Shown here: in pieces, positions 5,146 through 59,420 of the stretch | How the letters are laid out: every line of letters begins with the position of its first letter | Position numbering within the stretch: position 1 is the stretch's first letter | Assembly (NCBI GenBank): GCA_900095095.1 | Contig: FMBT01000465.1 | Span: 24,573 to 88,572, forward strand | DNA: 64,000 nt | DNA from: Fragilariopsis cylindrus CCMP1102 | Taxonomy: Eukaryota > Bacillariophyta > Bacillariophyceae > Bacillariales > Bacillariaceae | Reading direction: 5' to 3' | Translations under genes and position numbers: made by a program | The notes under the pieces: generated by a model | Databases searched by the model: none | What the model saw: the letters and a program-made list of their open reading frames with translations, nothing else | Told to the model about the DNA's origin: nothing

Positions 5146-6417
5146 TTAATCTAATAGTAAATAATATATTATGCGTACAGTTAGTACGTACCAAGTATTG
5201 AATACAACTGTTGCAATTGATCCACCGAGTAATGCTCCACCAATTATATCAGCTGGATGATGAAAGTTGTCATGAACACGCGATATGCCTTTCGAGGAAA
5301 AAGAAAACAAAAAGATATATTATAAGAATAGATAGAAAAGCAACTGTGAGATATAATAAAGAGAGAGAGAGAGGGGGGGAGAGAACCCGAATAACAGAAA
5401 AAAACAAGACACAAGAAAATAGAACAAAGAAGACGATAACTTACAAATAAAGAATGCGAGTAGCATAGGTGTATAACAAACAATTGAAACGATTCGTACA
5501 AGTTGAATGGGAAGATGATGACGTCGTCGTCGTGAAGATGTAGTAGTAGTAGTAGTATTGTTGTTGCTACTGTTGTTATTGTTGTTGTTATTCTTATTCA
5601 TATTGTAACATGAATTACTGATACCATAGACTCTTTCTAAATAATAAGAGAATACTAATAATCCACAGACACTGAAACTGGCATGTCCTGATGGGAAACT
5701 CAGTCGTGATTGACGTTCTTGATTTCCTTCACATGATTGTTGTTCATAAGAATCTTGATTGGGTTGACACATCTCATAAAAAATTGGTCGTAAATACCCA
5801 CAATATAATTTGGCAATATTGGTCAATGATTGTGTTACTCCAATCGACATTAAATACACACATAGTGTTTTATGTATGTCATTATCATCATCATCATCAT
5901 CATCATCATCATCGTTTTGCTGTTGTTGTTGTTGATGGTGTTGGTGTTGATGATATCGGTGGTAGTATTTCCTCTTATTCCTACATATAATCAGTAATTG
6001 GAAACAGAATGGTAGTACCAAAGCACAAAAAAACATAAGTAATGGTGAAACTGTTTCATTGTCTGGTTCTTTTAGATTATACATTTGATTCAATACATAT
6101 TCTCCTGATGATGATAGTTGATATGGAATTCGACGTTTATATGGATTAAATAGACTAGATTCTAATAAAATACCAATTGGTACTGGTATAAAACAACAAC
6201 CTAATTCAATTAGTCGCAATTTGATAGTAGAACTTGTAGTAGTACTTGTACTGGGCGGATTACCATCGACATCGACGTTGTTGTTGTTTGCTGCGTTTTC
6301 GTCGTCGTCATTACTACTACTACCATCGATATCAAGAGAAGATGCATCCGCATGATCAACAATAGGAAGAATAATAGTGTCACTATTGTCTCCTAGATTT
6401 TGAATATACGATGACAT
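5146..6417 (-). CDS. PAP2-type lipid phosphate phosphatase, two exons (paralogue of 43662-44996)
   Basis: Exons run 6417-5445 and 5288-5146. The 156-nt phase-1 intron has donor GTAAGT and acceptor AAAG. The product is 371 residues. It has an acidic/Asn-rich N-terminus, several hydrophobic segments, then the PAP2 signature: KLYCGYLRP (C1), SFPSGHAS (C2), and in exon 2 SRVHDNFHHPAD (C3 with the nucleophilic His). Family members dephosphorylate lipid phosphates such as phosphatidate at membranes. His-, Gln- and Asp-rich triplet runs sit in a loop before C1, and Asn/Thr runs lie between C2 and C3. The C-terminus past NTWY is less certain, because a GTACGT donor follows that could start another intron. 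Without splicing, C3 would be lost, so the intron call is strong. Confidence 0.88.
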
Positions 6418-7694
6418 GATGCTATTGCTATTGCTGTTACTATTGCTATTGCTGTTGCTGTTGCTGTTGTTGTTTCGATTATAGCGTGGACGAATAATGA
6501 TGATTGTAGTTGTATTGGCGTTTTGCTATTTGTGTATTATTTGGATAGTTCTTTTCCTTTTTTGTGATGATACGTCGAAGTAGCTCTGCAGTAGGTTGTT
6601 TTTGTTCGCTTGTTCGCTTTGCTTTTGATGTGTTGGTGGCGCCATCAGTAAATACACACTATTAACGGCTCAGCTGAAGTACAAAGCAACAAATGCGCGA
6701 TACAGGCAGGTAAAAAGAAACCACAAAATATTCATTCGTGCTTACGTGGGTGGGTCCTACGAGAAATCGTGATTTTTTTTTTAAAACAGTAATTATTTAT
6801 TTCCTTTCAGTATGTGTATGGTCTGCAGAATACTATTATAGTATATAGGACATTGCACTTTTATCACCTAACCTTGTCCAATTTTCTACCTATTATTCCT
6901 CAGATATATAGACATAATATATACTAACCATACCAGCTCTAGTAATAATAGAAAAGAAAAAGTCGAACACAAGCTTCTCCAAAAATTGATTGATTAAATA
7001 ATTTGTTTGAAAATAATCATTGTTAGTAATAGGAATAAGAGGAGAGGGGAATAGAGGAAGATACAAGAAAAAAGTGTATGGTAATGTATTACCTAGCTTG
7101 TTCAAATTTCTATTTCTGTATGTAAAATACTAGCTCACGAGACTCAATTGAGATACAATGAGATTTGAAGAAAAAAATCTAAGCTCAGCTAGAAATTGAT
7201 CTATAAAAGAGATATGGCTGAGCTTAGCAGAGCATACTCAAGAAACTATCAGAATGATTGTTGGTATATGTATATAAATACCAGTATTAGTATAGTTATT
7301 AACCTAATTAGAATGCATAGCTAAGGTAGAGAGAAACAAAGATCAGTGGATGATTGACCCATACACGTTAGAGTAGTGCTGTAATGCATTTTCTGTGCCG
7401 GAATGAACGTGTTCAAAATTGCTTTGAGGGACTAGTGAGTCGTGCTTCTTTGTGCTGTATTTAATGCCTCCAATTAAAAAAATGTTTGACGTTGTACTTA
7501 ACACCAGTCCCACATGAGATTGTCGTACTAGTAGCGCTTCAAGTAGCGCTTCACAAACTCACAAACGCAATTCATTCAGAGGGTCACGTTACTCTCCCGA
7601 ATCCAGTGAGAAATATCTACATTCAGCAAAACCGATTATTAGATCGACATACCGGTACCGACACTCTCATAACACAAAAAAACAATAAGCAAAA
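6418..7694. other. Intergenic between divergent genes
   Basis: No gene is supported. Next to the PAP2 start there is an imperfect TTGCTGTTGCTATT hexamer-type repeat (~6420-6470), probably leader sequence. The rest is AT-rich and must hold promoters for both divergent neighbours. Confidence 0.5.
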
Positions 7695-42196: not shown

Positions 42197-43000
42197 TTAA
42201 ATATACCTTTTTGTTAAAAATCTTTGGAAAAATAACAGTAAAATACCTTTCTCATTATTTTCTGTATCATAATAATTTCCTTTTTGTTTATGGACTCGGC
42301 TCTTGCAGGAGATAGCATGGAAATACAATATCATCTCCAGGGATATGGTATCCCTGTGGATCAAATTCCCATAACAGACACCGGAAATATTAAAACAAAA
42401 AATCTTCATCAATGGATCAGAGTACGAAAATACCTTGAATCTTCTAGGAATGATCCATATCATGCAGGGCTGAGTTCCGACTCGGAAGGTAGTTTTAAAC
42501 CCACCGACAGTATGTCAGAATATATCGACTGTCCAAACATGAACGATGTTATATTTCGAACGAAACACGCGTATTTGTGTCATCCTGGTAATGCTACCTT
42601 TCGAGGATTAATTGAATCTAGATTCCATGAACACTTCAATGCAAAAACAACGGATGAGAAGGTAGCGGTAACATGGTCGATTATTAAGGAGGTAGATAGG
42701 AGGAATGGCCGATTCCTTGTTTGGGACATAAATGGTTGTTGGAAAGAATTGAAAGATAGGTCGCAAATCCGAACAAAGGTGGCGGGTGCAATGAAGGATC
42801 ATAAACGTCGAATAAAAGCACGAAGTAATCACCAAGTAAATCATAGCAGCACCTCCGTGTTTCAACTACAAGATACCAAAAATAAGAAGAGAAAGGTTGG
42901 AAATAATTATCAACAGAAACTGACATTAGGTGGTGTCGGTAGCGGTGGTGGCGATGTAAGAGGAGGATGTTTTGACCTCTCTAAATTTGGTTGCTTATAG
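40967..43000 (+). CDS. CRAL-TRIO-like / DUF6824 fusion protein, three exons
   Basis: Exons 40967-41665, 41835-42141 and 42309-43000; introns of 169 and 167 nt (GTACGT...CACAG, GTAGGT...TTGCAG). Product 565 residues. After a Ser-rich start, KLSFQARNAIYEEIHGVG marks the N-terminal part of the CRAL-TRIO-like family common in diatoms; LRFLRCELFNISKAAVRM and RDRSGRR follow. Exon 2 gives IRVTLYMYWALGEDEESQKK; exons 2-3 join at LKFHCG|DSMEIQYHLQGYGIPVDQIP, typical for the lipid-pocket end. Exon 3 adds a DUF6824-like domain: NDVIFRTKHAYLCHPGNATF, EKVAVTWSIIKEV, NGRFLVWD, WKEL and R-x-K. The C-terminus is basic (NHQV...KNKKRKV). CRAL-TRIO domains bind small lipids; DUF6824 is often in regulatory proteins. 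A lipid-responsive regulator is an inference. Confidence 0.88.
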
Positions 43001-43661: not shown

Positions 43662-44772
43662 TTATAATGAAATAGCGTACCAAATATTGAAAACTAATGA
43701 TGCAATAGATGCGCCTAAAACAGCACCACCAACCACATCTGCGGGAAAATGTCTATTGTCAACAACACGGCTTGCTGCTATAAAAACAGCAAATAACATT
43801 GGTGTGTAACAAAAAAGTGATACAAGTCTTTGAAGGCCTGTTTTTGCATGATCCTGTATTTGTTGTTGGCGTCGTCGCAATTTGTTCCTCCGTAATAAGT
43901 TTTTTTTGGTTGCTATTGTTGGCTGTGTAAGAATTGTACGGAAACACTGTTCTAAATATAATGATAATAAAAGCATCCCACAAAAGCTCCCACTAGCATG
44001 ATTCGATGGAAAACTTATTCTTTCACCTTTTGCTTCATACTCGTCCATACAACGGAACTCACCACCCCCACCACCTTCACCGTTACTACCACTAGCATCG
44101 TAATAGGGTTGACAGATATCTAAAAATATTGGTCGCAGATATCCCACATAGTATTTGACAGAGCAAGTTATAACTTCCGTTATTCCAAATCCAACAGAGT
44201 AGACACAGATTGTTTTATGGATCGCATCCCATCGATGGAATAGTCCTATATCAATGCTGTTACTATCATTACCTGATCTATTATTGTTGTTGTTGTTGTT
44301 GTTATTGTTATTGCTATTGTTGACAGCAGTCGCAGTCGCAACAGGATTACTACCAGGAGGAAGGATCCATAGAAACCATACGATAAATAATTGTAACATT
44401 AATGGTAAAATTAGGGCATATAATTTACATTCTGTACTTGAAATTGTATCACCTAGAAATTTTTCACTGTTAACAAGATTCCAAACAGTATCTGGATATG
44501 AGTATAATGATTCTTCTCTGGTATCTTCGTCGTTGTCGTCGTCGTTACCGCCGGCGTTGTATTTAATGGTACTTCTACCACTACTTGCAGTATTTATTCC
44601 GATTCCTCCTGACATTCCCAAATGTTCATATGGTATAGGTCGTTCTCTTGGTTGATAGTAGATATAATCTAGATACAAAACGATCAATAGACAAGGCCAG
44701 AAACAAACATTCAATTCAATGAATCTGTATGATGTAAAATATTCCTTCCACGTGCAGCAATGCATCGTACCG

Positions 44773-44806
<34 letters not shown>

Positions 44807-44996
44807 ACTCGTGATCATGATCATGATCATCACCATCACCACCACCATCATCGTCATCGTCAATCATCGCGTCGTGATATATATGTATATCCTCCGCACT
44901 ACTGCTGGTCAGAGAAATACGCTCGAGTTCTACCGGTTCGGTAACAAAATTGCCGCTACCATATGTCGTCGTTGTTGTGCTGCTTCTGTGATTCAT
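43662..44996 (-). CDS. PAP2-type lipid phosphate phosphatase, intronless paralogue
   Basis: 444 residues, single exon. An acidic N-terminus (Asp/His runs from ATC/GTC repeats), hydrophobic segments, then C1 KYYVGYLRP, C2 SFPSNHAS and C3 SRVVDNRHFPAD, followed by VVGGAVLGASIASLVFNIWY. It is a clear paralogue of 5146-6417. Unlike that gene it has no intron before C3, and C2 reads PSNH rather than PSGH. The central Asn run (encoded by TTG/TTA repeats) lies at the loop where the paralogue has His/Gln runs. Function as for PAP2 enzymes: hydrolysis of lipid phosphates at membranes. C3 is intact, so it is probably active. Confidence 0.88.
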
Positions 44997-45750
44997 CGTG
45001 ATATTTTTTTGCCTACTACAAGGTACCGTACATAAACTGTACTGCGTACTGGATTCTTTTTCTTTTTACTGGATTATCTAATTCGATTGAGATTGCCACT
45101 CGCCAACGTGGTTAAACTCAAATATATATCGCTCTCTCTATCGTCTATCGTAACAATATATTAAGGGAAGTTGTAATTCTTTGAAAAATAAATTCGAAAA
45201 TAAAGAATTTTAAATTGAGTGATTGTATCGCCAAAACTGAACACATACTCGTGAATGGACAGTCGTGTGGTCAGTCCTTGATCAGTCATTCACTAGTTAC
45301 TCGTGTCTTACTCCTTCACCATGAATATTATTATCATTCGCTTACCCTTGTTACCGGTATATTGGATGCACCCCCCCTCAGCAGCAGATAATGTATAATT
45401 GATAGGAAGGCCGAAGAATTTAAGAAAAAACCGTCCGTAACAGGGAAACCGTCAAAAATCGCACATGAATAAATAGTAGTAAACTGTAGTCAATTAAATT
45501 CACTAAATGTTTTTTAATATAGTCTAATTCGCTAAATAATATTGTAATCTTGTTTATCTCTAATAGCGCTCATCACCAAATTCGACGAGCTACTCTACCG
45601 GACTTACGATACGATTCCAGAATATGTATCTGCATTCTTTTTTCTCTACGACTAGTAGACAACACCTCATTTGTGGTCTAAACTTACTAATCTTTTGGTT
45701 GTGGCACTATATATGGTGCTACGAAGCTAGCCCTCCGTTGATCCGCTGGC
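44997..45750. other. Intergenic, no gene seen
   Basis: AT-rich region between the PAP2 start and the 3' end of the large minus-strand gene. No supported gene or RNA. Confidence 0.5.
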
Positions 45751-48700
45751 TTATACGAAATGCGTATCTCCGTCATCGCTGTAGATGGTACTAGTGTTGG
45801 TGTTTATTGTGTGATGATGGCGTTGCATCAATTTTTCGATTTTGCCCCAGTTGCTTTTGTTGAGTTGTGGTCCACCGATAATACCCTCTGGGTCACCAAT
45901 AATACCAGTGGGATTGCCCTTCGTCCTTGCTTGAAATCGTCGTTCACGATTGTGTTTCTTAAACTGAAAAAAATCTCGCCACATGGGAGACGAATGATGA
46001 AAAAGATTCGCATCCGATGCTCTAATTATTTGTTCGTCGTCAGAAGATGAAGACGAAACAGATAACGATGAGCTACCATCCGTTTTCTTCTTTAAGCAGT
46101 GATCGGGAGCCCATAGTCCCCTGATAGTATCCCAATGTAAGTTTTTCGGTTCGTGACCCTTAGGCTTCTCGTATGTTCCGTCATCCTTTTTTCGCGGCTG
46201 CCGTTTTGGCAAGAGACATCCGTCGCGTGTACGACGTGCTTGTCTTTCCACAAATCGATTTTTGAAATTTCGACTTCTAAAATGTCCTGTCTGATCAGGA
46301 TCGTAGTTGATCTCATCAATATCGTGTCCTGCAGAATACCCGTCGGCGTCATCGTGGTCACCCCCAACGAAGTCGTCAGATCGCTTTCTCTTTTTAAGGG
46401 ACGCAGATCGTAAAGAACCATCAGTTGTACGACTAGAAATAGTTTCATCCTCATCCTCATCGTCACCATCACTACCTGCACCTTCATTTAGACGTTCAGG
46501 TGGTGCCCACAAACCTCGAATTTTGTTCCAGGACAATCCAGCAGGTCTTGCTCCATCCGGCATCTTATAGTATCCATCTGCCCGCAAATACTTTTCCTTT
46601 CCGCCCTTTGGAATAAGACAACCATCTTTGGTTAGACGTAGTTTTCGTTCTGTTTCGCGGTTAAACACTTTGTAATGAGTATCATCATCGTCATAATCAT
46701 CACCATCGCCACCTATGCCGTTTTTCAGACTTTCAGATGGTACCCATAAACCTCGAATTTTGTGCCAAGATAATCCAAAGGGTCTATGTGTGTATGATGT
46801 GACGGTGGTTTGATTTAATTCAAAATTTAGAAAGGATGAGGGATTTCTTTGCACACAGATAAAGAAAATATAAAAGTCATGTATATAGTAGTTTTGGAAG
46901 ACTTACCTTGCTCCATCCGGGCGCCTATATGTTCCATCATCCTTCAAATATCTTTCCTTTCCATCCTTTGGAAGAAGACAACCATCTTTGGTTCTACGTT
47001 TTGCTCGATCTATTCCACGGTCTTTCGACCCTCTACTAGAAGGAGTACCACCATCACCATCATCATCATCACCACCGTCATCACCACTATCATCGCCTCT
47101 ATTATTATCATTCAATCGGTCAGGTGGTACCCACAAGCCTCGAATTGGGTCCCAAGATAAATTTGCGGGTCTGTATGTGTATTATGTGATGCGATGGTGG
47201 ATTCAATTAGATTCATGGTATTGAAAAAAAAGTGAGAAAGGAAACATAGATAAATATGCAAGTTATGAACAGTATACAGGCAGTAGTAAATATACCGCTG
47301 CTCTTTTTTGAGATATATTTACCTTTTTCCAGCCGGTATATCATAGGTTCCATTACTCATTAAATACTGTTCCTTACCACCCTTCGGATGAAGGCAACCA
47401 TCGCTGGTTTGACGTAGTCTTCTTTCCGTACTTCGGGACATCCCATTACCTTGTTCAGGATGGTAGTGGTAGCTGTCGGATGCCATTATATTTTTATTAT
47501 TTTTGATGTTCTTCTTCTTATCGTCCCCACCACGATCAATACTACTACCATCGCCTAAGCTCAATCGATTAATGGTAAGAATTCGTCGTCCCGAACTACT
47601 TCTTTTCCGATCACCAGCATTAGCAGGAGAACCATCCTTTAGAGAAGTAGAGTCACACTCATCATCTTTCCTAACGACAGGAGAAGCTACAAGGTGGTGG
47701 TCTGCATATTTACGTTTCTTAATGGGTTGCCTGTTGAACTGCGAACGACCACTATCAATACCACTAACACCACCACTACCAATACTACCATTATCACCTC
47801 CACGTTCTTCTCGTCTACTTTTAATTTTTCTTAGTACGTCAACTGATACACCACGATAAAATAATCGTTTGGTGGGATCATTTGAAGATTCTGCTTCCTC
47901 AATAGATCTATGTTGAAATGTACGACAATTTTTACCAAGAATTGGTGATATGATATTAAATTGACCAAATGCATTCAATATTGATACCATTTTAGTCATA
48001 AAAGTTGTTTTCTTTAATATCTGTGTCACAAAATCTGATTCACTATATACATGAAAACTATTTCCATCTGTACTCCATGAAACAATTTTATCAATACCTA
48101 ATTGTTTTGATGAATTTAATAATCGACATAGTTGTATAGGAAATGTCAATTCACCATTATCATTCCTTTTTTTGTTCGAATTACAACTATCAGTTAAATC
48201 AATTTCATCTAATGATGATACCGTTAAGTATTCATCATAAACAAATTCATTACCATTATCATCATCATCGTTATTTGTTGTTGGTGGTGGTGGTTGTAAT
48301 ATTAAATTTAAGTCTCGACGTATCATCTTATTATTAAAGAACTTTGACCCTTTTCTATATTTCAAATCATGCTCTTTTTTCCCCATTTTCGACTTAAATT
48401 TCAAATCATACTCATTTTCCCCCATTTTTGACTCCTCATTACCATTATCATCATTGCCAAGCTGTTTCTTCTTTGTCAGCAGTACCTGCTGTGCTTTCTT
48501 GTTGTTCTTCTTCTTCCCTTTGGCATCATTCTTTGTGTCGGCAGCAAACTTGTACAAACCAAGTTCTTTCAATTTATCCTCATTGCGTTTGATTTTATTC
48601 AAACGTAGCTTTTCGTATGCACTCAAACCACCTTGGTTATTGTTGTTCTTATTGATGGGGTCATTATCATCATCGTCGTCGGTATCATCCGAATCCGAAT

Positions 48701-50237
48701 CCGAATCCGAATCATCACCACTTTTATAATCAACTGATTCATCCGAATCTAACTTTAACATATCTTGACTATCCTCCTCCTCCTCCTCGTCGTCATCGTC
48801 CAGTAACTCGGAATGGATAGAATCATCTTCATCATTATTCTCATTATCGACTTTTGTTTTTGTTTTTGTTGTTGTGGTTGGTCTAAAAATAAAACCAAGA
48901 CTGTTTAATTTGGATACTTTTCTCCAATCGACACGTGTCATATCATGATATCCCGATTCTAATCTTCGACAATTACGATTAATGGCGGTACATAAACGAT
49001 AAACTTGATTTTTATATTGTTTAGGATTTTTTTTTTTCTTCGAACGGAATTTACAATATTTTTTATGTTCTGATCGAATATCTCGAATAAATTTTCCCAG
49101 TATCGGATGATTAGTTGAGATATTACAATGACCACAATTCTTATAAAATTGTATCATCATACCATATCCTTCCTCCCATGATCGTGGTGTACGAACATCA
49201 GTAGTAATAGATGCTAGAACATTATTAGTGGATTTATGATTATTTTTATTATAGACCAAGTAATTCCTGGGTACTAATTTTTTCTTATCAGTTTTAGTAC
49301 TTGTTGTTGTTGTTGTTGTTGTTATTGTTGACGCATGTTTTTGCGATGCCAGTTTTTGTCGGTAGGTATGCGAATCCGAACTATTCTCCCATTCCCATAA
49401 ATAATGTCGACCAATTTTTATATTCGGATCATTGTATTCTTCAAAAGGATTATCATCATTCTCATTATCTAATTCGTCGTCATCGTCGTCGTCGGAAGCA
49501 GAAGTAGTAGAAGCAAAAGTAATACTTCTTTTTTTTCCTTTCTTTGCTTTTACTTTTAGTTTATTAGTAGTATTTTTATTTTTATTTGTCGTTGTGGCGG
49601 TTGCTGCTGCTGCTGCTGCTGCTGCTGCTTGGACACGCATACAGGTCGTTTCGTGTCGTTTAATACCATATTTACTGAACATCTCATTACAAAACCTACA
49701 TTTTCCCATATCGGGAATTGCTGTTGCTGATTTTTTTAGAGTGCCGTTGCCATTGCCGTTCTTGTCACTCACAGTTCTATTATCAATACTGCTACAACTT
49801 TTATCTGTTAAAAATACTTTTTTGCCACCGGAAGATGTTGCTGTTGCTGCTGTTGCTGCTGTTGCTGCTGTTGCCTCAGTAGAATTTGAATTTGCAGAAT
49901 TTGAATTATTATTTGTAGTAGGCGGTGGTGGTGGTACTGCTGCTCTTGCTGGTGGAGCAGGAACCGCCATATAATGATTCGGAACAATTCGACGTCGTCG
50001 TTGACCATTCATTGCTAATCGTACACTGGAATAGGGTACATACTCAATCATATTGGTAGTGGTCCATTTAATTGAGACATATTCTTCTTCATCTTCTGAA
50101 TCGTTCTCATTTGAATCATCAGAATCGTCATCGTCATCTGAATCAGGTTTACGTATATCACCGATATACATTGCCATATGATCTGTTTTACCTTGTGTGA
50201 CCCAAACAAGTTCACCTATTCCTATACCTGATGCCAT
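45751..50237 (-). CDS. Multidomain nuclear-type protein: Tudor-like, C2HC finger, HA-like, HSF-like domain and tandem GLW modules; three exons
   Basis: Exons 50237-47323, 47170-46907 and 46783-45751; introns of 152 and 123 nt, both phase 2. The product is 1403 residues. In order: Tudor/PWWP-like barrel (~8-85, ELVWVTQGK...YVSIKWTTTNM); C2HC finger (C180, C183, H195, C199); helicase-associated-like domain (~352-450, WEEGYGMMIQFYKNCGHCNI to LNSLGFIF); acidic linkers; YEKLRLNKIKRNEDKLKELGL (~540-560), a motif seen in other nuclear proteins; HSF-like DNA-binding domain (~698-800, FPIQLCRLL to LFYRGVSVDVLRKIK). From ~945, four modules follow, of form [R/K]xTxDGCLxPKxGKExY ... DGTYxxPxG, then xLxWxxIRGLWxPxxxL, plus one degenerate copy. 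DNA or chromatin binding is inferred. The HSF-like recognition helix lacks the usual Arg. Confidence 0.85.
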
Positions 50238-51270
50238 GATTATTTATTTATTTCTTCTTCTTTTTCTTCAATTTTTCGAGATTTCTGATAAACTTGCTTT
50301 CTTTTGTTTCTTCCTGTTACTGACTGACTGACGTGTGATGCATGCATACGTTTTTTCGAAGAATCTACTACTGATTGCTTTCTTTCTTTCTTTCTTTCTT
50401 TACTTGGCTTTACTACTGTAGTACGGCACCAAAGAAGATGACGACAAGCGAACGAACTAACGTTACTGTACAGTACGTAACCTTGCTCTTGCTTTCTAAT
50501 CGTGAGTCACTACTCGTGAGAACTCGTGAGAACTCGTGAGAGGGTTCTCAAAACTACTAACAAAAATGTATTTGATTTTTTATTGAAACCTTCTTATTCG
50601 CTCTTGCTTTTCTAGTAGTCGTAGACTACAGTACAGTACGTTACTTGGCCTGGCCTCGTTTATTGATACTGCTACTGTAGGCGAATGATAAATTTAAGTA
50701 ATGCAGGAAATACAGTACATTAGAGCCAAGATAATAAAACTTCAGGTAAGTGTAAAGGTACACAGGTAGTGTACTGTAGTGTGTTAGTAGTAAGGGATGA
50801 TCGCCATGTGTGCGACTAACTTTTTGCGTATTTAATTTAAAAAAGAGTTCTTTGGTGGTAGCGTGTTGACGCTACCAGGAATTGCGCTTATAAAGTGTGC
50901 CGTACAAACGACACCAACGCTAATGACATTTTTATGTTTTCTTGCTTCAATAGGCGATGAAGAAGCAATGTTAGTTTTGGGTGGTACAAAATATAAAAGC
51001 ATAAGTCTTTCTTACAAAAAACAATTGATTAAACCAAAAAAATTAAAAAGTATAATTGTGTTTAATGAAAGTAAAGCGATTTTTTTCTGAATTGCCATAA
51101 TTGAATATAAAAACGCCGTACAAACTTCTTGTACAATGACATTAAGTAACATTCTTCGATACGCGAACCTACTTGCACTACAAGCAACACACATTAACTT
51201 TTCTATTTGGGGGTTTTCGTGAGAACTAGTGGTTATAATTAATAATCCCCCCAAATTAGCATAGAGGGGC
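50238..51270. other. Upstream region of the large gene; short tandem repeats
   Basis: A CTTT run lies at ~50383-50402. GAACTCGTGA is tandemly repeated near 50513-50542. ctacagtacagtacgt-type words recur. No gene is supported; frames at 50863-51305 are short and unrecognised. Confidence 0.5.
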
Positions 51271-52129
51271 TTTTTGATCAGAAATGAACACAAAAAATGT
51301 CTCATTTGAAAGGGTTGCAGGTAACAGCACCAAATAGGTTGGGTGCACTATCATCCACATAGTGTACTAGAACATTGTGTGTGCCTCCTACAACTTTTCT
51401 GCTTATGTAGTTGCGGAATAAAATAATGTGTTTCGCTTTTATGGTAGGCACACAAATAATAACAAGATTTTTGATCAAAATGAACCACAAAATATCTCAT
51501 ATAGAAGAGTTCCATAGGACAACACTAGATGGGTCAGAAGAATTGTGTTTGCCTCCTACCACATTCCTGTTCCTGTGGTTAAGGAATAACATTCATTTTG
51601 CTTTTATGACAGGCGCACAATCCAAATAACAAGATTTTTGGTCAAAATGAACCACAAAATATCTCATTTGAAAGGGTTGCAGAAGACAACACCAGATGAA
51701 TCGGGTGCACTAACATCCATTTGATAGTGTACTAAAACATTGTGTGTGCCTTCTACAACTTTTCTGCTCCTGTAATTGCGGAATAAAATGCATCTTGCTT
51801 TTGTGGTTGCTTGCACCCAAAACATACTTTTTGATCAGAAATGAGCCACAAAATGTTTCATTAGAAAGGGTTGCAGAGGACAGCACCAAACAGGTTGGGT
51901 GCACTAACATCCACATAGTGTACTAGAACATTGTGTTTGCCTTTCTATTCCTGTTGTTGAGGAATTAAATTCATCTCGCTTTTGTGGCAGGCACAAAAAC
52001 TACAGCATGATTTTTGATCAGAAATGAACAAAAAATATCTCATTTGAAAGGGTTGCAGTCAACAACACCAGATGGGTCAGGGGAACAAGCATCCACATTG
52101 TGTAGTACTAGGCTAGATCATTGTGTGTG
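51271..52129 (+). repeat. Satellite-like tandem array, five units, plus orientation
   Basis: Units begin with TTTTTGATCA(G)AAATGA near 51271, 51468, 51634, 51828 and 52011, a period of ~166-197 bp. Each contains a form of tcatttgaaagggttgcag, acaacaccagatg, catccacatagtgtactag, attgtgtgtgcctcc and gcggaataaa. The fifth unit is cut by the 5' LTR. Non-coding. Confidence 0.9.
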
Positions 52130-52498
52130 TGTTGCGGATTCAATTTATTTGGAGTCCCGTGAGGTTTTTGTGGTAGTCGCGGATCATATGCATTATGACA
52201 TCTGTGCACGTCGCTTCCTCACAATAATAAAACATGTGAAGTTATCTAGTTGTGTGGCTGACAATTGACGAGAGGCGATGTGTTGTGTTTACATTGTGCA
52301 AATGAATATCATTGCACCTCTGTACACTGCACCTCCACTGTCATGTCGTCACTACTCATTATTTATTAATTATCTATGCAATAGGGAAATATATAAATAA
52401 CTAAGTTAACTAGCAAACATACAGTCTCTTCAAGCATTACATAGCCATAGCAATCACAAGTACCTCAGATCGCAGAGGGTGTCTATTGTATTTCAACA
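52130..52498 (+). repeat. 5' LTR
   Basis: 369 bp, TGTTG...CAACA. It contains ATATATAAATAA near 52389-52400, a likely TATA signal. Start and end were fixed by comparison with the 3' LTR; the shared gtg just before TGTTG could shift the start by three bases. Confidence 0.93.
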
Positions 52499-52590
52499 TA
52501 ATTAATAAATAATCAAAGCCATTGATCCGATCTAATCGAATCAATAACAACCATCGATACAGTCAAATATACCAGATATCAACTCTAACG

Positions 52591-54867
52591 ATGACTCAAA
52601 ATAACGAATCCAGTACTCCTCCAAGTGGTACTGCCGACAACAAGGCAACAGCCGCAACGACTGATACCACATCAGGGAAGGCAGCTGGATCAAAGAAGAA
52701 ACAACAACAGAAGAAGGGTAACAACAACAACGCTTCTGCTAAGAAGAAACAAACGGCTACACCGAAGTCTTCCTTCAAAGGTTTGGCATCCGGCAACAGC
52801 TCCATGAAAGGCATTGTAATTGCTGATGGTAATGGTAACAAGGCTGGTCAGTTTCGTGTGTTTCAGAAGAGCCTAGCTGGTACTGCTGCCGAGGCAGCAG
52901 CCTATGGGCTTGATTCAGCTATTCTGGATCTAGAACCTAAATTGAGGACCGATTTCATCACACCGAAGGAAAGTCCGGAAGTGCATTCCAATCTGACTCC
53001 AATCCTGGATGAAGATGGTGCAGAAACTGGTGGTAACACACTAATATGTTTCAATCCTGCTCTTAAGGAGCAAATGGACGCTGAATACCACACGCTGTTA
53101 AAAATCCAGTCGTCGAACTGGAATCAATACAGTAGAATTGTGGAAGGTTATTATCGCATTGCCATTGGAAACATTGACAGCAACGTGCTAACATACTGTC
53201 GTATGGACAAACGTATGGCTGATGCAGAAAAGAAAAAGGATTTAATAGCATTCCTGCTCATCCTTAGATCTGTTTGTGCGCAGAACCAAAGCAATGTGAA
53301 GGTTGATCAAGAATTCAAGAACCTGCACTCTCTACATTCAACATTCGGTTATAAACAAGTGAAGAGTGTTTCTGATGCAGACTATGCAGAAGAAGTTATG
53401 GACCGATACGAATCGGCTGTATTCACTTGTGGTAAATTTATAGTGGGTCAAACCATCTATGATAAAGTATTATCAAGATATCATACTCCATGTACATTCA
53501 AAGAATACCACCTCCTTACTGAAGAGAAACAAGCTCCTATCGATGATATTGTCAAAGATAGAACAGTTGCCAGGTTAATCATCAAGAATTCGCTTAACAG
53601 CAAAGCCCGTGCAGAACTAGTGAAAACATATTCTGTCAACAACAGCTCATGTTATCCTAATACTGTGAGCGAAGCATTATCTTTACTGGAAACATTCAAA
53701 ATGACACCAGCTGATAATAACAATACCAATCAAACAGAGGCTGAGACAGCTATCGTGTCCTATCACGAAACTATCGACCCTGTTATTGAAAATGAAGTGG
53801 AGGATATCATTCCAAATGATGCTCCCACCCATGAAGAACCAACCATCGACGACGTCGTTGTTGAAGAAACTGAGGAGTGTACGGACACTAATCAAGCTGA
53901 TTTCAATGCAACAGTTATGGCTTCCATTATTAGCGAAGCAACAGCTGAAGCTGATGAGGAAATGTTCATCGGTGCTAGTTTTGCAGGACTGCAGGATGCT
54001 GATGAGGCTTATGACGACAACGAACCCGACCTATTGTGCTTTGCACAGGTGGTCGATCAAGCAGCCAATGCTGAAGAATCTTCATCTGAAGAGTCCAATC
54101 AACGGCGGGATAGGATATTGCATGAACGACCTAGTTATGCGATCAACCACAAACAAGATTTTGAATTAGTGGTATATCTAACAGCTCAAAGAGTGAACAA
54201 TTCAGGCGATCATGTCCGTATTCGACACTATGAAGTAGATAATCCGGGCCTCATTAGTCATGAATATGGAGGTACAACACCAGAAGCTATTGTGGACTAC
54301 TCAGATGTACTTCGTTTAAAGCTACAGACTGCAGGGATCAAGGACGTCGAGAATCTGCTTGATATCTTTGAAGAATGTAGTACCAATGATGCCTCATCAA
54401 GCATCCGGCATCTGATGAACACAGTATGTCAAGTACCACTTCACACCAGCACAGTGCGTTTCCTGAAAGAGGAAACATACAGACACAAAGAACATCTTCG
54501 ATACAACAGTACAAGATATGATGTTATGTGTGGTGAAATCGGCAGAGATGATGCACCAATCCATTACCCTGCAGCTCATGTTCTACTGCATCATACTATT
54601 GTTGCAGTGGCATCATACCAACAAAGGCGCAAGCCTACACGTTGGATCAACAAGGTAACTCGAAAGATGACAGAGTGTCACATCAATTCTCGTGAACAAC
54701 TTGAAAATGTGATTAGAAATAACACAATCAATGATGTATTCCAACAATACAACAAGCCTTCCTTCCACAAGATGACAATCAATGGATTTAAGCATATTCT
54801 GGGTATAGAAGTGAACCAAGGTTACATTGCAGGTTACACTCAGGATTTTCGTCAAGGCCGGTCTTAA
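52591..54867 (+). CDS. Copia Gag-like protein
   Basis: 758 residues from ATG 52591 (open upstream without ATG). The N-terminus is Lys/Asn/Gln-rich, and the middle (~150-390) is a helical region typical of Gag (FNPALKEQMDAEYHTLLKI onward). The C-terminal half has an acidic segment (NEVEDIIPNDAPTHEEPT) and a second ordered part with KPTRWINKVTRKM near the end. No CCHC zinc knuckle is visible, which is unusual for Gag. It ends 14 nt before the Pol ATG, in a different frame. Expected to form the particle that packages element RNA. Confidence 0.85.
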   Translation: MTQNNESSTPPSGTADNKATAATTDTTSGKAAGSKKKQQQKKGNNNNASAKKKQTATPKSSFKGLASGNSSMKGIVIADGNGNKAGQFRVFQKSLAGTAAEAAAYGLDSAILDLEPKLRTDFITPKESPEVHSNLTPILDEDGAETGGNTLICFNPALKEQMDAEYHTLLKIQSSNWNQYSRIVEGYYRIAIGNIDSNVLTYCRMDKRMADAEKKKDLIAFLLILRSVCAQNQSNVKVDQEFKNLHSLHSTFGYKQVKSVSDADYAEEVMDRYESAVFTCGKFIVGQTIYDKVLSRYHTPCTFKEYHLLTEEKQAPIDDIVKDRTVARLIIKNSLNSKARAELVKTYSVNNSSCYPNTVSEALSLLETFKMTPADNNNTNQTEAETAIVSYHETIDPVIENEVEDIIPNDAPTHEEPTIDDVVVEETEECTDTNQADFNATVMASIISEATAEADEEMFIGASFAGLQDADEAYDDNEPDLLCFAQVVDQAANAEESSSEESNQRRDRILHERPSYAINHKQDFELVVYLTAQRVNNSGDHVRIRHYEVDNPGLISHEYGGTTPEAIVDYSDVLRLKLQTAGIKDVENLLDIFEECSTNDASSSIRHLMNTVCQVPLHTSTVRFLKEETYRHKEHLRYNSTRYDVMCGEIGRDDAPIHYPAAHVLLHHTIVAVASYQQRRKPTRWINKVTRKMTECHINSREQLENVIRNNTINDVFQQYNKPSFHKMTINGFKHILGIEVNQGYIAGYTQDFRQGRS

Positions 54868-54881
54868 CAACGGAAGATCGA

Positions 54882-57800
54882 ATGCCATATGAACCGTACG
54901 ACACTGGATGGATCAAACCCATCTATGGATTGATTTGCCTAACTTGGCTTATATACAACCAAGGATGCCTACCTACTGTCGTTTCAGCAATGTGTTTCAA
55001 CAACATATTCATTCCAATGTTTGGAATTGCCTACAAGCTACTCCAAGCAATCGCTAACTCTATCTTGACAGTCGGTACTGCCATAGTTCAAATTGAGTCT
55101 TGTGTTTTCCGTCATTTCAACTATATTGATCCAATTTTCAATTGCATTCAACGATTTGAACGTTTGATGTCTAGTGTTCGAATACACACTAATCCATCGA
55201 TGGCCATACGCCCTTCAGGCATATGTAGAAGACATAATTCCAGCAACAACAAGAGTTCCTCAGGGAGGCACTCTGGTATGTACCATGCTAGAAAGCGACT
55301 TGCAACCAAGCGTTCTATAATAACGCAACCATGGGCCGATTACTGGCCCACTCAAACCCAGGTCCGATCCAATCCTCGGACCCAGACCTGGTACCAAAGG
55401 AGACCATTACGATATAAAACCCGTAATGCTCTGCCCGCTCCGACTATACCTCAATCATTCTATCCTATAGATGATCCATCTTATCTCGACGTCACATGGT
55501 ATGACGCCATCTCTCCTTACTGGACTGGTGGTATGATTTGGAATAGTGCTTATGTACTCAACCACCAAGTTGTATCTGTTACTACTGATCCTATCTTTGT
55601 TTCTAATTTGTCTCCGACACTTGAAATGTCCGGGACAGTTCAACCACCGGAAGCAAGGAGTGGGGGTAAGAATGTTGGCCCACGGACCACCATTGCTCTT
55701 GATAGTGGATCTAGTATTCACATATTTAAGGATGCCTTCCTGCTAGCTGACATACTCTCTGATGACAGCAAATCCATCGCTGTTCGAACCACCGATTCGA
55801 AGTTCCAAGTTAATGACATAGGACGTCTTTGTGATGACCTCAACACACTGCCTCTTCCTCGTGATGGGTATTACTACTATCCAAATGGAGTAGCTAACCT
55901 TCTATCACTGGCCATGCTTACTGAAACTAAAAGGGTAGTGATGGACAGTGCGATTGACAATGCTATATATGTATTCAACGATGATGGCTCGTACATACGG
56001 TTTGCTAAGACATCCAATGGCATGTACTGTATTGACATCGGTACGGATAGCAATGATCATGTTGTAATGGCACATCAAACTGTCAAAGGCGAGAGCGCAC
56101 AGTTCTCAGCAATTGACTGCAGAAGAGCTGCCAAGGTTAGAGAACTACAACAAGTACTGGCATGTCCTAGCGACATTGACCTGGCCAATGCAGTGGAGCA
56201 CAACATCATAGGCTACAACAGGTTCACCAGAAGGGACATTCGTATTGCAAAGAAGATCTATGGTCCAGACGTCCCATCCCTGAAAGGAAAGACTGTCAAA
56301 CGGCCAAGCAAGATGCCGGAGAACGATACTTCAGAACTCCCATCATTCATACCGAAAGAATACACTGATGTCCACATATCAATCGACCTTATGCATGTGA
56401 ATGGAGTCAAGTTCCTAATAGCTCACTCCAAGCACATTGGACTGCTACAAACGTACTGTGTAAGAAAGAATAATCGTGAAGCCATACTGGCGTGCATTCT
56501 AAAAATAGTACAGTCCTACAAAAGTAGGAGTGTATTTAAGGTCGTAACGATTGAAGCTGACGGAGCATTCAAATCCATCAAGCACGAGCTTGAAGGAGAT
56601 CCATACAATATAACATTATCAACATGTGATGCTGACAGGCATGTGGAGACTATTGAAAGGCAAATAAGATTCCTCAAGGAGAGGATCCGAGCCGTTAGGC
56701 TAATGATGCCGTACAAGAAACTTCCAATGAGGTTCACCATTGAAATGGTACACCAAGTTGCCCAATTGATTAACTCTCTACCTAAGAGCAATGGAATACA
56801 TGCCATCCTATCACCAAGAGAAATCGTTAGTGGTAAGAAATTCAGATGTCCTACTATCAAAATAGGGCAATACGTCCAAGGTCTCACGGGTGGTACAAAC
56901 AGTACTGATCAAGAGAGGTCAATCGATGCTTTGTACATCGGTAGGGCTGACAATGGCAGTGGACACAGCGTGTTCAAACTAAGCACCAAACAAGTCGTAT
57001 CGGTCAACAGGGTTGTAATAATACCTACAAGTGAGGCCACCATTACAGCTGTCAATCACATTGGCAATGAGGAAGGACAGCCAGAAGGCTTAGAATTCTC
57101 TGACATGAATGGCAAGATCACACTTGATGACTTCGCTGCCAATGATAATAATGATGATGACAGCAATGCGTCTGATGCTGACTTTAAAATGGATGAAGAA
57201 TATCAAGATGAACTTGACAAAGAAAGGAAACTGGAACTTAAAGATAATCCAGATAATGATGCAGACCCTGACTCAACAGGGTTTGGTTCGGATGACCCGG
57301 ACTCGCAGATAGACTTCTTTCAGAACCCAATACAACAACACAATCAGGGTGTAGAACCTGTCATCTTTGACAATAGGACCCGATCAGCCAACAATCCAAC
57401 AGTGGCTCTTACTACTACTACACCAGCTGCAAAGCAGGAGTGTGGCAGCGATAAGAAGAAGAAGTATCCCATCATCAATGACGGTACACACTTGATAGAA
57501 GAAGATCTCGATGATGACCTAATACAAGACAATACTGTAGTACCTAACAACGACAAAGTCATTGATGCTGCAGTAGAGGAACCATCCGTTCCGTCCGAGC
57601 TTGTGTCGGACCTAGGTTCATATTGGGCGTTCGCCCAATCATCACATGCTTATGTTCTCAACACCATTGCCTCTTACAACAACATCGAAGCATCCAAGTC
57701 TACTCCACAGTATGGTTTTAACAGAGGCCTGAAGGAATTCAAGGATCTTGGGTATGAAGCAACAGTGAAAGAGCTTGATGATAATCTTTTAGGAATGAAT

Positions 57801-58202
57801 GCAGTAAAAATGCTTAATCCATCTGAAGTCAATCAACACATACGTTACGAGGCTCTCAACTACCTCATGTTCTTAAAAAGAAAGCGCTGTGGAAAGATCA
57901 AGGCCAGAGGCTGTGCCGATGGCCGGCCACAAAGAGAATACATCACTAAGGAAGAGTCTAGCTCCCCGACAGTGTCGATATATGCATTGATGACATCATG
58001 TTTAATGGATGCGATAGAAGGCAGATATGTTGCCACATGCGACATCCCGGGAGCATTCCTACAAGCTGACTGGCCAGCAGACCATGACTGCTGGCTCAAA
58101 TTCGATGGAGTAATGGTCGGTATGATATGCAAAATAAACCCCGAATACAAGAAGAATCTCGTACCTGGCAAGAATGGAAAGAAACACTCTATGCCAAGCT
58201 GA
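54882..58202 (+). CDS. Copia Pol, part 1: protease, integrase and start of reverse transcriptase
   Basis: 1106 codons from ATG 54882. An unusual N-terminal extension (~1-230) has hydrophobic stretches at ~12-70. Protease: IALDSGSSIHIF (D274). A degenerate GAG-pre-integrase region follows (~360-465). Integrase core: D502 in SIDLMHVNG, D560 in IEADGAF, and E592 in ETIERQIRFLKER, a block typical of diatom copia elements. The acidic linker (~720-900) is followed by the RT start with CADGRPQ and ATCDIPGAFLQ, whose Asp is the first catalytic one. The frame is lost at ~58184, and the last codons to 58202 are out-of-frame sequence. Confidence 0.9.
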   Translation: MPYEPYDTGWIKPIYGLICLTWLIYNQGCLPTVVSAMCFNNIFIPMFGIAYKLLQAIANSILTVGTAIVQIESCVFRHFNYIDPIFNCIQRFERLMSSVRIHTNPSMAIRPSGICRRHNSSNNKSSSGRHSGMYHARKRLATKRSIITQPWADYWPTQTQVRSNPRTQTWYQRRPLRYKTRNALPAPTIPQSFYPIDDPSYLDVTWYDAISPYWTGGMIWNSAYVLNHQVVSVTTDPIFVSNLSPTLEMSGTVQPPEARSGGKNVGPRTTIALDSGSSIHIFKDAFLLADILSDDSKSIAVRTTDSKFQVNDIGRLCDDLNTLPLPRDGYYYYPNGVANLLSLAMLTETKRVVMDSAIDNAIYVFNDDGSYIRFAKTSNGMYCIDIGTDSNDHVVMAHQTVKGESAQFSAIDCRRAAKVRELQQVLACPSDIDLANAVEHNIIGYNRFTRRDIRIAKKIYGPDVPSLKGKTVKRPSKMPENDTSELPSFIPKEYTDVHISIDLMHVNGVKFLIAHSKHIGLLQTYCVRKNNREAILACILKIVQSYKSRSVFKVVTIEADGAFKSIKHELEGDPYNITLSTCDADRHVETIERQIRFLKERIRAVRLMMPYKKLPMRFTIEMVHQVAQLINSLPKSNGIHAILSPREIVSGKKFRCPTIKIGQYVQGLTGGTNSTDQERSIDALYIGRADNGSGHSVFKLSTKQVVSVNRVVIIPTSEATITAVNHIGNEEGQPEGLEFSDMNGKITLDDFAANDNNDDDSNASDADFKMDEEYQDELDKERKLELKDNPDNDADPDSTGFGSDDPDSQIDFFQNPIQQHNQGVEPVIFDNRTRSANNPTVALTTTTPAAKQECGSDKKKKYPIINDGTHLIEEDLDDDLIQDNTVVPNNDKVIDAAVEEPSVPSELVSDLGSYWAFAQSSHAYVLNTIASYNNIEASKSTPQYGFNRGLKEFKDLGYEATVKELDDNLLGMNAVKMLNPSEVNQHIRYEALNYLMFLKRKRCGKIKARGCADGRPQREYITKEESSSPTVSIYALMTSCLMDAIEGRYVATCDIPGAFLQADWPADHDCWLKFDGVMVGMICKINPEYKKNLVPGKNGKKHSMPS

Positions 58203-59420
58203 CTAAAGCAGTGTATGGTACACTACTTGGTGCTAAATTATTCTACGACAAGCTTAGTAAGCAATTAGTGGAATGGGGATATGAACCAAATTGCTATGAT
58301 GGATGCACATTCAATAAGATGGTTGATGGCAACCAAGTTACAATCCAATTCCATGTGGATGACTTGAAGATATCACACGTCAAGCAATCTGTTGTGGACG
58401 CGGTACTAACCGACCTCAACAAGCAATTTGGTACAACAAGAAAGCCACTTGCTGCTAGCACCGGATTGGTCCATGACTATCTTGGTATCACTATTGATTA
58501 CAGTGAAAAGGGGAAGGTAATCTTCACCATGTACGACTACTTGGAGGATATCCTGGAGGAAATGCCTAATGATATGAGGGGAACATCACCTACACCAGCA
58601 AGTAGCAACTTGTTTGATGCGGATGAAGATTCACCACTGCTTAATGAAAAAGAAGCAGATTTCTTCCATCGAACAACAGCGAGGCTACTGTTTGCTTCAA
58701 AGAGAGCGAGACCAGATCTACAGGTAGCTGTAGCATATCTATGTACTCGAGTGAAAGCTCCAACACAGTCAGATTACCGGAAAATTAACCAGGGTGATCA
58801 AATATTTACGACTAACCATATCCATTCCACTCGTGTTGGGATGGGATGGTACTGGAAAACTATTATGGTCAGTGGATGCATCGTTTGCAATACACAAGGA
58901 TATGAGAAGCCATACCGGTGCTGTATTAACACTGGGACAAGGCGCCCTATTGGCAATGTCAATCAAGCAAAAGATCAACACCAAGAGCTCTACGGAAGCA
59001 GAATTAGTTGGGGTCGATGATGCAATGAACTTTGTTGAATGGGTGCAGTTATTTGTAGGAGAACAGCTCAAATCAATTAACAGCGATTCAATTTTGAAGA
59101 AGATTGGGTCTGAAATTGTGATACAACAAGACAATACAAGTACAATTCTGTTGGCAAGAAATGGTAAACAATCTAGTACCAAAAGGACTAGGCACATCAA
59201 CATTCGGTATTTCTATGTAACAAGCAAGATCAAGGATGGAAGTATGAGTGTTATATATCATCCAACTAAGGAAATGGTATCCGACTATTTGACCAAGCCC
59301 CTACAGGGTTGCCTATTTAGGACTCACAGGAATTCTATTATGGGACATACAGAGGAATCCATTGCCAAGTATCACAAGGCATATTCGGATGCCAAGAAGG
59401 GTGGGTCTCCACCTAATTGA
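58127..59420 (+). pseudogene. Copia Pol, parts 2-3: reverse transcriptase core and RNase H, frameshifted
   Basis: From ~58185 the RT continues in the -1 frame: AKLTKAVYGTLLGAKLFY, then FHVDDLKISH with the catalytic Asp pair (FHVDD instead of YVDD), and DYLGITIDYS. Near 58789 a second shift moves coding back to the original frame, giving IKYLRLTISIPLVLGWD and RNase H: WSVDASFAIHKDMRSHTG, INTKSSTEAELVG and later QDNTSTILLARNG, ending at 59420. Each shift is explained by one base, an A lost in an A run and a C gained at aacca. No slippery site is evident, so these are mutations rather than recoding. Confidence 0.88.

Follow-up and report, generated by a model that had tools for sequence, protein, structure and literature searches.

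A minus-strand gene of Fragilariopsis cylindrus that joins barrel, HA-like and HSF-like domains to a four-module array and shares two DNA cassettes with other genes

Results

Gene model and reading frame

The window analyzed here is a 64,000-nucleotide (nt) stretch of Fragilariopsis cylindrus CCMP1102 (assembly GCA_900095095.1, 67.9 Mb in 818 contigs; contig FMBT01000465.1, positions 24,573 to 88,572). It carries on its minus strand a three-exon gene (50237-47323, 47170-46907, and 46783-45751) whose 1403-residue product places a Tudor-like barrel, a finger-like motif, a helicase-associated-like (HA-like) domain, and an HSF-like domain ahead of an array of four small modules. The gene is real, and to judge from alignments with other contigs, two parts of its product are copied DNA blocks common to other genes, a feature absent from the first-pass annotation of the same DNA. 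That annotation had proposed a spliced protein of 1403 residues, and the three exons, joined across two GT-AG introns of 152 and 123 nt, give exactly this length. The features are as follows.

45751..50237, minus strand: whole gene, 1403 amino acids in three exons (reading frames; a second haplotype copy on contig C517 has the same part order)
47323..50237, minus strand: exon 1, 2915 nt (gene model)
47171..47322, minus strand: intron 1, GT-AG, phase 2 (gene model)
46907..47170, minus strand: exon 2, 264 nt, phase 2 at both ends, skippable in frame (gene model)
46784..46906, minus strand: intron 2, GT-AG, phase 2, with a homologous intron on contig C303 (gene model, alignments)
45751..46783, minus strand: exon 3, 1033 nt including the stop codon (gene model)
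49968..50231, minus strand: Tudor/chromo/PWWP-like barrel, residues 3-90, with an acidic loop at 31-52 (structure prediction, fold searches)
49641..49700, minus strand: C-x2-C-x11-H-x3-C finger-like motif, residues 180-199 (zf-C2HC_2 profile)
48882..49202, minus strand: HA-like domain, residues 346-452 (PF03457 profile, haplotype comparison)
48648..48824, minus strand: acidic stretch, residues 472-530, aspartate or glutamate at 30/59 positions (composition)
47838..48143, minus strand: HSF-like winged-helix domain, residues 699-800, recognition arginine missing (PF00447 profile)
45754..46005, minus strand: C-terminal tail, residues 1320-1403 (haplotype comparison)

The barrel, the finger-like motif, the HA-like and HSF-like domains, and the opening half of module 1 (half 1a) all fall within a single unbroken frame of 974 codons and are therefore independent of splicing, so that the most surprising combination does not hinge on gene-model choices; modules 1b to 4 do depend on splicing. 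Because exon 2 is 264 nt long and in phase 2 at both ends, skipping it keeps the frame open and would make a single module of half-modules 1a and 2b. Retention of intron 1 brings a stop codon directly after exon 1, as would be expected if exon 1 were the end of one gene and the modules belonged to another. We consider two such transcription units very improbable: the division of module 1 falls exactly on intron 1, in the phase and at the place also seen for intron 2 and the C303 intron, and both intron positions are kept in C517. Between its domains, the protein has long low-complexity linkers, and its basic clusters are consistent with nuclear import.

An HSF-like domain lacking the recognition arginine

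Against PF00447 (Pfam cut-off 22 bits), the HSF-like domain scored 28.7 bits as a segment alone and 23.6 bits within the whole protein. A profile built from 13 other HSF loci of the same genome gave 45.3 and 41.2 bits, respectively, against maxima of 8.7 over 1000 shuffles and 4.6 over 500 shuffles of the HSF segment. The HSF-like fold proposed in the first pass was thus borne out, both by the Pfam cut-off and by the profile check. Both alignments are partial: the PF00447 match spans only positions 1-64 of 100, and the own-genome alignment covers residues 698-753 and ends before the recognition helix.

In HSF proteins, the arginine of the recognition helix motif SFxRQLN reads DNA. In both the window protein and C517 this helix is shortened or changed, and the arginine is absent. 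We compared this position across 25 other HSF loci, taken from the best-scoring of 128 HSF matches in the assembly (E ≤ 0.001) and including several haplotype pairs: it is arginine in 19/25, serine in two, lysine in two, and uninformative at exon ends in two (L054 and L068, which an exon border cuts off ahead of the helix, were kept in the count). Many of the 128 matches are paired, with equal or near-equal scores on different contigs, which suggests that the assembly holds both haplotypes. Other altered HSFs occur in this genome. L055 and L059 (C509 and C55) have serine at the arginine position; L060 (C311:22585-25728) is a frame with three HSF domains, the aligned one having lysine there; and C701:25043-26245 holds three HSF matches in one 753-codon frame, the aligned one again with lysine.

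With the recognition arginine missing, a working sequence-specific HSF is not supported, and the protein is probably not a classical heat-shock factor. It has in common with the HSF family some 60 positions at the start of the DNA-binding domain (residues 699-758), which score above the Pfam cut-off, and differs in lacking the recognition-helix arginine and in placing the domain midway in a 1403-residue mosaic. An ordinary heat-shock transcription factor that carries additional domains and binds sites of the heat-shock-element type would agree with the score above the cut-off and with the HSF expansion that PMC4827209 describes as seemingly diatom-specific. We judge this improbable in view of the absent arginine and the limited Pfam match. 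A crude scan for heptads after the domain gave a score of 1 against a shuffle mean of 2.5 (482/500 shuffles reached at least the window score), which speaks neither for nor against an ordinary HSF, since several ordinary HSF loci score 2-3, and 12 control HSF loci ranged from -3 to 8, most at 2-4, with poor separation.

The window's domain combination was found in none of 19 other HSF frames (single exon frames, scanned with Pfam at E ≤ 0.001); 17 had no further Pfam family, one of these having three HSF domains, and two had DUF6824. These 19 came from 26 HSF loci, with L058, L059, L061, L063, and L067 omitted as repeats or near-identical partners and L054 and L068 as truncated; the scanned frames of L007, L057, and L064 are cut by the locus end. 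The window itself holds a DUF6824 protein at 42242-43000 (plus strand, 46.2 bits), and the two HSF+DUF6824 genes are L004 and L006 (C513 and C343).

Barrel, finger-like motif, and HA-like domain

Residues 1-90 matched no Pfam family at E ≤ 1. AlphaFold2, run on the single sequence, predicted a five-strand barrel of modest confidence (predicted local distance difference test (pLDDT) 64) with likeness to Tudor, chromo, and PWWP folds. No Foldseek match reached E ≤ 0.001, and the fold matches were led by Tbtudor, MRG chromo, PWWP, and PHF1 Tudor, with Rous sarcoma virus (RSV) integrase also among them. The predicted five-strand barrel is what the protein would share with royal-family readers (PHF1/PHF19 Tudor, MRG chromodomain, PWWP), from which it differs by its long acidic loop, by identities of ≤19% in the matches shown, and by the lack of a Pfam match. 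The candidate cage aromatics Y24, Y53, W58, and Y66 are kept in the copies on C42, C714, C500, and C108; W12 is not kept in C500 and C108. A single-sequence search of viral contigs, whose reach is limited to close relatives, found no relatives of the barrel.

The finger-like motif scored 19.5 bits against zf-C2HC_2 as a segment and 12.4 bits in the whole protein (cut-off 27), with BED and C2H2 models close behind. For the HA-like domain, PF03457 (cut-off 28.4) gave 25.9 bits for the segment and 21.4 for the whole protein (E 1.2e-5 and 3.2e-4), and an own-genome HA profile gave 14.9 and 10.0 bits against a best shuffle of 9.1, a thin margin that lends weak support. That profile comprised only four sequences, and a repeat-finding pattern gave no more; among HA matches in the genome, the 150 scored of 583 candidates all reached at least 62.7 bits. 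The region shares the W-x-GHCN-x-LG core pattern of the HA domain and differs from it in scoring below the curated cut-off, in being a single copy, and in carrying a long basic insertion. Each of these three first-pass assignments therefore survives in part: the Tudor/PWWP-like barrel as a fold predicted with modest confidence and unmatched in Pfam, the C2HC finger as a C/C/H/C spacing below its curated cut-off, and the HA-like domain as a profile similarity, likewise below cut-off.

The module array

The array consists of four copies of a 54-57-residue (~55) unit.

47110..47432, minus strand: module 1, residues 936-992, split by intron 1
46723..47010, minus strand: module 2, residues 1026-1080, split by intron 2
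46486..46656, minus strand: module 3, residues 1103-1159, best model, pLDDT 85
46090..46251, minus strand: module 4, residues 1238-1291

Modules 1 and 2 each contain a phase-2 intron, which interrupts both at the corresponding position. Profile and fold searches of Pfam and PDB found no match for any of the four, in keeping with the array of an unrecognized module described earlier; the unit size given then, 60-80 residues, did not hold and presumably included linkers. A search for the module in viruses or prokaryotes, made with single sequences and hence limited to close relatives, turned up nothing related in viral or genome contigs. One weak module match on C306 (E 0.006, 33%, in a 58-codon frame) was taken as chance, there being no frame of at least 90 codons at that place on that strand.

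Two DNA cassettes shared with other genes

Two blocks of the gene have counterparts elsewhere in the assembly.

46729..47010, minus strand: module DNA cassette (half-module 2a, intron 2, half-module 2b), common to a Myb-like gene on C303
49906..50282, minus strand: N-terminal DNA cassette (45-nt leader plus codons 1 to ~110), common to C714 and partly to C500 and C108

The Myb-like domain of the C303 gene scored 21.1 bits, below its cut-off of 24.4. In a three-way alignment, window and C303 agree at 110/114 positions of intron 2 (17 gap columns) and window and C517 at 114/122 (10 gap columns); pairwise alignment gives a lower window/C303 figure for the intron, 105/122. In the exon-3 part the values are 54/55 for C303 and 52/55 for C517, whereas in the exon-2 part C517 is much closer to the window (102/104) than is C303 (91/104). 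Past the half-module, the similarity to C303 stops abruptly. The simplest reading of these alignments is that intron 2 and the exon-3 part would have been exchanged recently between non-allelic genes; alternatively, their likeness to C303 could reflect shared descent with slow change. Passages of PMC11378527 on the ROCO genes of brown algae describe leucine-rich repeat (LRR) exons in phase 2 that shuffle. As presented there, those exons resemble the window array in being repeat units with phase-2 introns, able to duplicate or shuffle in frame; the window module differs in being split midway by its intron, in not being an LRR, and in having a copy in a Myb-like gene.

For the N-terminal cassette, window and C714 match at 41/43 positions of the leader, 239/270 of codons 1-90, and 54/60 of the next 20 codons, falling to 14/46 thereafter. 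Upstream of -45 the match is 21/47, a value to be read with caution as C517 is also poor in the same fixed-length slice (32/49); the C517 similarity to the window extends upstream to about 51240. C500 and C108 are ~78% identical to the window over codons 1-90 (178/228 and 179/228), fading over the next 20-40 codons. The 3′ border of the cassette coincides with a CCA-type proline repeat, or nearly so, in these copies. At the protein level, similarity to C714, C500, and C108 is restricted to the first ~90 residues (592, 575, and 580 residues read per gene, the gene ends lying outside the residues compared), and C500 and C108 share one further 22-residue match when the low-complexity filter is off. 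Tudor_3 matches C714 weakly (14.7 bits against a cut-off of 25.8), and C500 and C108 have no credible family.

Cassettes that had moved with retrotransposons, the barrel being an integrase-type SH3 domain, would give the gene a mobile-element origin. RSV integrase is indeed among the structural matches of the barrel, and a Ty1/copia-type element lies just upstream of the gene (52513-59420). We find this origin very improbable, as the higher-ranked barrel matches are mostly Tudor/PWWP and the module cassette carries its intron, which argues against copying via spliced RNA.

The second haplotype copy

In C517 the parts of the window gene recur with their order unchanged and both intron positions kept, and inspection by eye places the beginning of the same PAP2-type neighbor on its 3′ side. 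Ungapped identity over the gene region is 94.9%. Across 1385 comparable codons, nonsynonymous (dN) and synonymous (dS) divergence are 0.038 and 0.100 (dN/dS 0.38). By region, dN/dS is ~0.05 in the HA-like domain, 0.19 in the HSF-like domain, 0.27 in the barrel, and 0 over residues 1292-1403, which have no amino-acid difference between haplotypes; values are high, on few changes, in residues 276-345 (0.75), in module 3 (0.78), and in the linker between modules 1 and 2 (>1). There were initially 17 coding gaps, and exclusion of a 1-nt gap at 45752, where the C517 slice is one base short, left 16 indels, of which 15 are multiples of three. The sole exception is an A-run at 49038, inside the HA-like region, where C517 has one base fewer and its reading frame falls into two, of 425 and 597 codons; either the allele is truly broken or the assembly is in error here.

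The frame break raises the concern that this is a recently assembled or decaying chimeric gene, with real domains whose combination has little selected function and with one haplotype already broken. The long low-complexity linkers, the relaxed dN/dS of some parts, and the cassette similarity, which suggests recent exchange, are consistent with such a history. We nevertheless regard it as unlikely, though deserving of attention, because dN/dS, at 0.38 for the gene as a whole, drops much further in the HA-like and HSF-like domains and the tail, and the indels fall almost entirely in threes (which triplet repeats would partly favor). The single-base difference, moreover, sits in a homopolymer, and assembly errors are common in homopolymers.

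Proposed function and assembly

These data are most reasonably read as pointing to a nuclear or chromatin role, and the explanation we prefer, with moderate confidence, is a nuclear, chromatin-associated regulator whose mosaic structure was assembled by cassette shuffling, its function being deduced from its parts. Nuclear location is suggested by the basic clusters and the nature of the domains. The N-terminal barrel would read a histone tail or a similar methylated tail, the HA-like and altered HSF-like domains would add weak or non-specific contacts with DNA or protein, and the four-module array would bind a partner multivalently. The protein would have been put together by the copying of cassettes between non-allelic genes, and exon 2 may be skipped to yield a shorter, intact array. 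In the literature searched (titles, abstract starts, and passages) we found no description of this architecture.

More tentatively, an active exchange of parts might be taking place among the nuclear regulators of this genome, with ectopic recombination or conversion bringing copies of barrels (together with their translation leader) and of half-modules (intron included) from one gene into another, non-allelic one, so that chromatin factors with new tails continue to emerge. The ~55-residue module might then be an undescribed domain of stramenopile regulators, its copy number tunable via symmetric-exon skipping; we offer this broader proposal as a possibility only.

Against the striking expansion of HSF genes in diatoms (PMC4827209), the window gene is a concrete case, a member that seems to have given up reading DNA and is yet retained in a multi-domain protein. 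With its direct DNA traces of assembly, the gene also provides a case of regulator evolution by domain shuffling, together with a candidate new small domain.

Neighborhood of the gene

On its 3′ side, the gene is followed by a PAP2-type phosphatase at 43662-45065 (minus strand, 84.8 bits), and a frame at 5320-6525 (minus strand) is similar by eye only. The Ty1/copia-type region (plus strand) consists of long frames, three of which were scanned: one matched RVT_2 (37.9 bits), and two had no Pfam match at E ≤ 0.001. Upstream of the gene, at 51270-52130, one C517 stretch matches several times with overlap, which suggests a repeat unit of ~180 nt; these repeats are absent from the Tandem Repeats Finder list.
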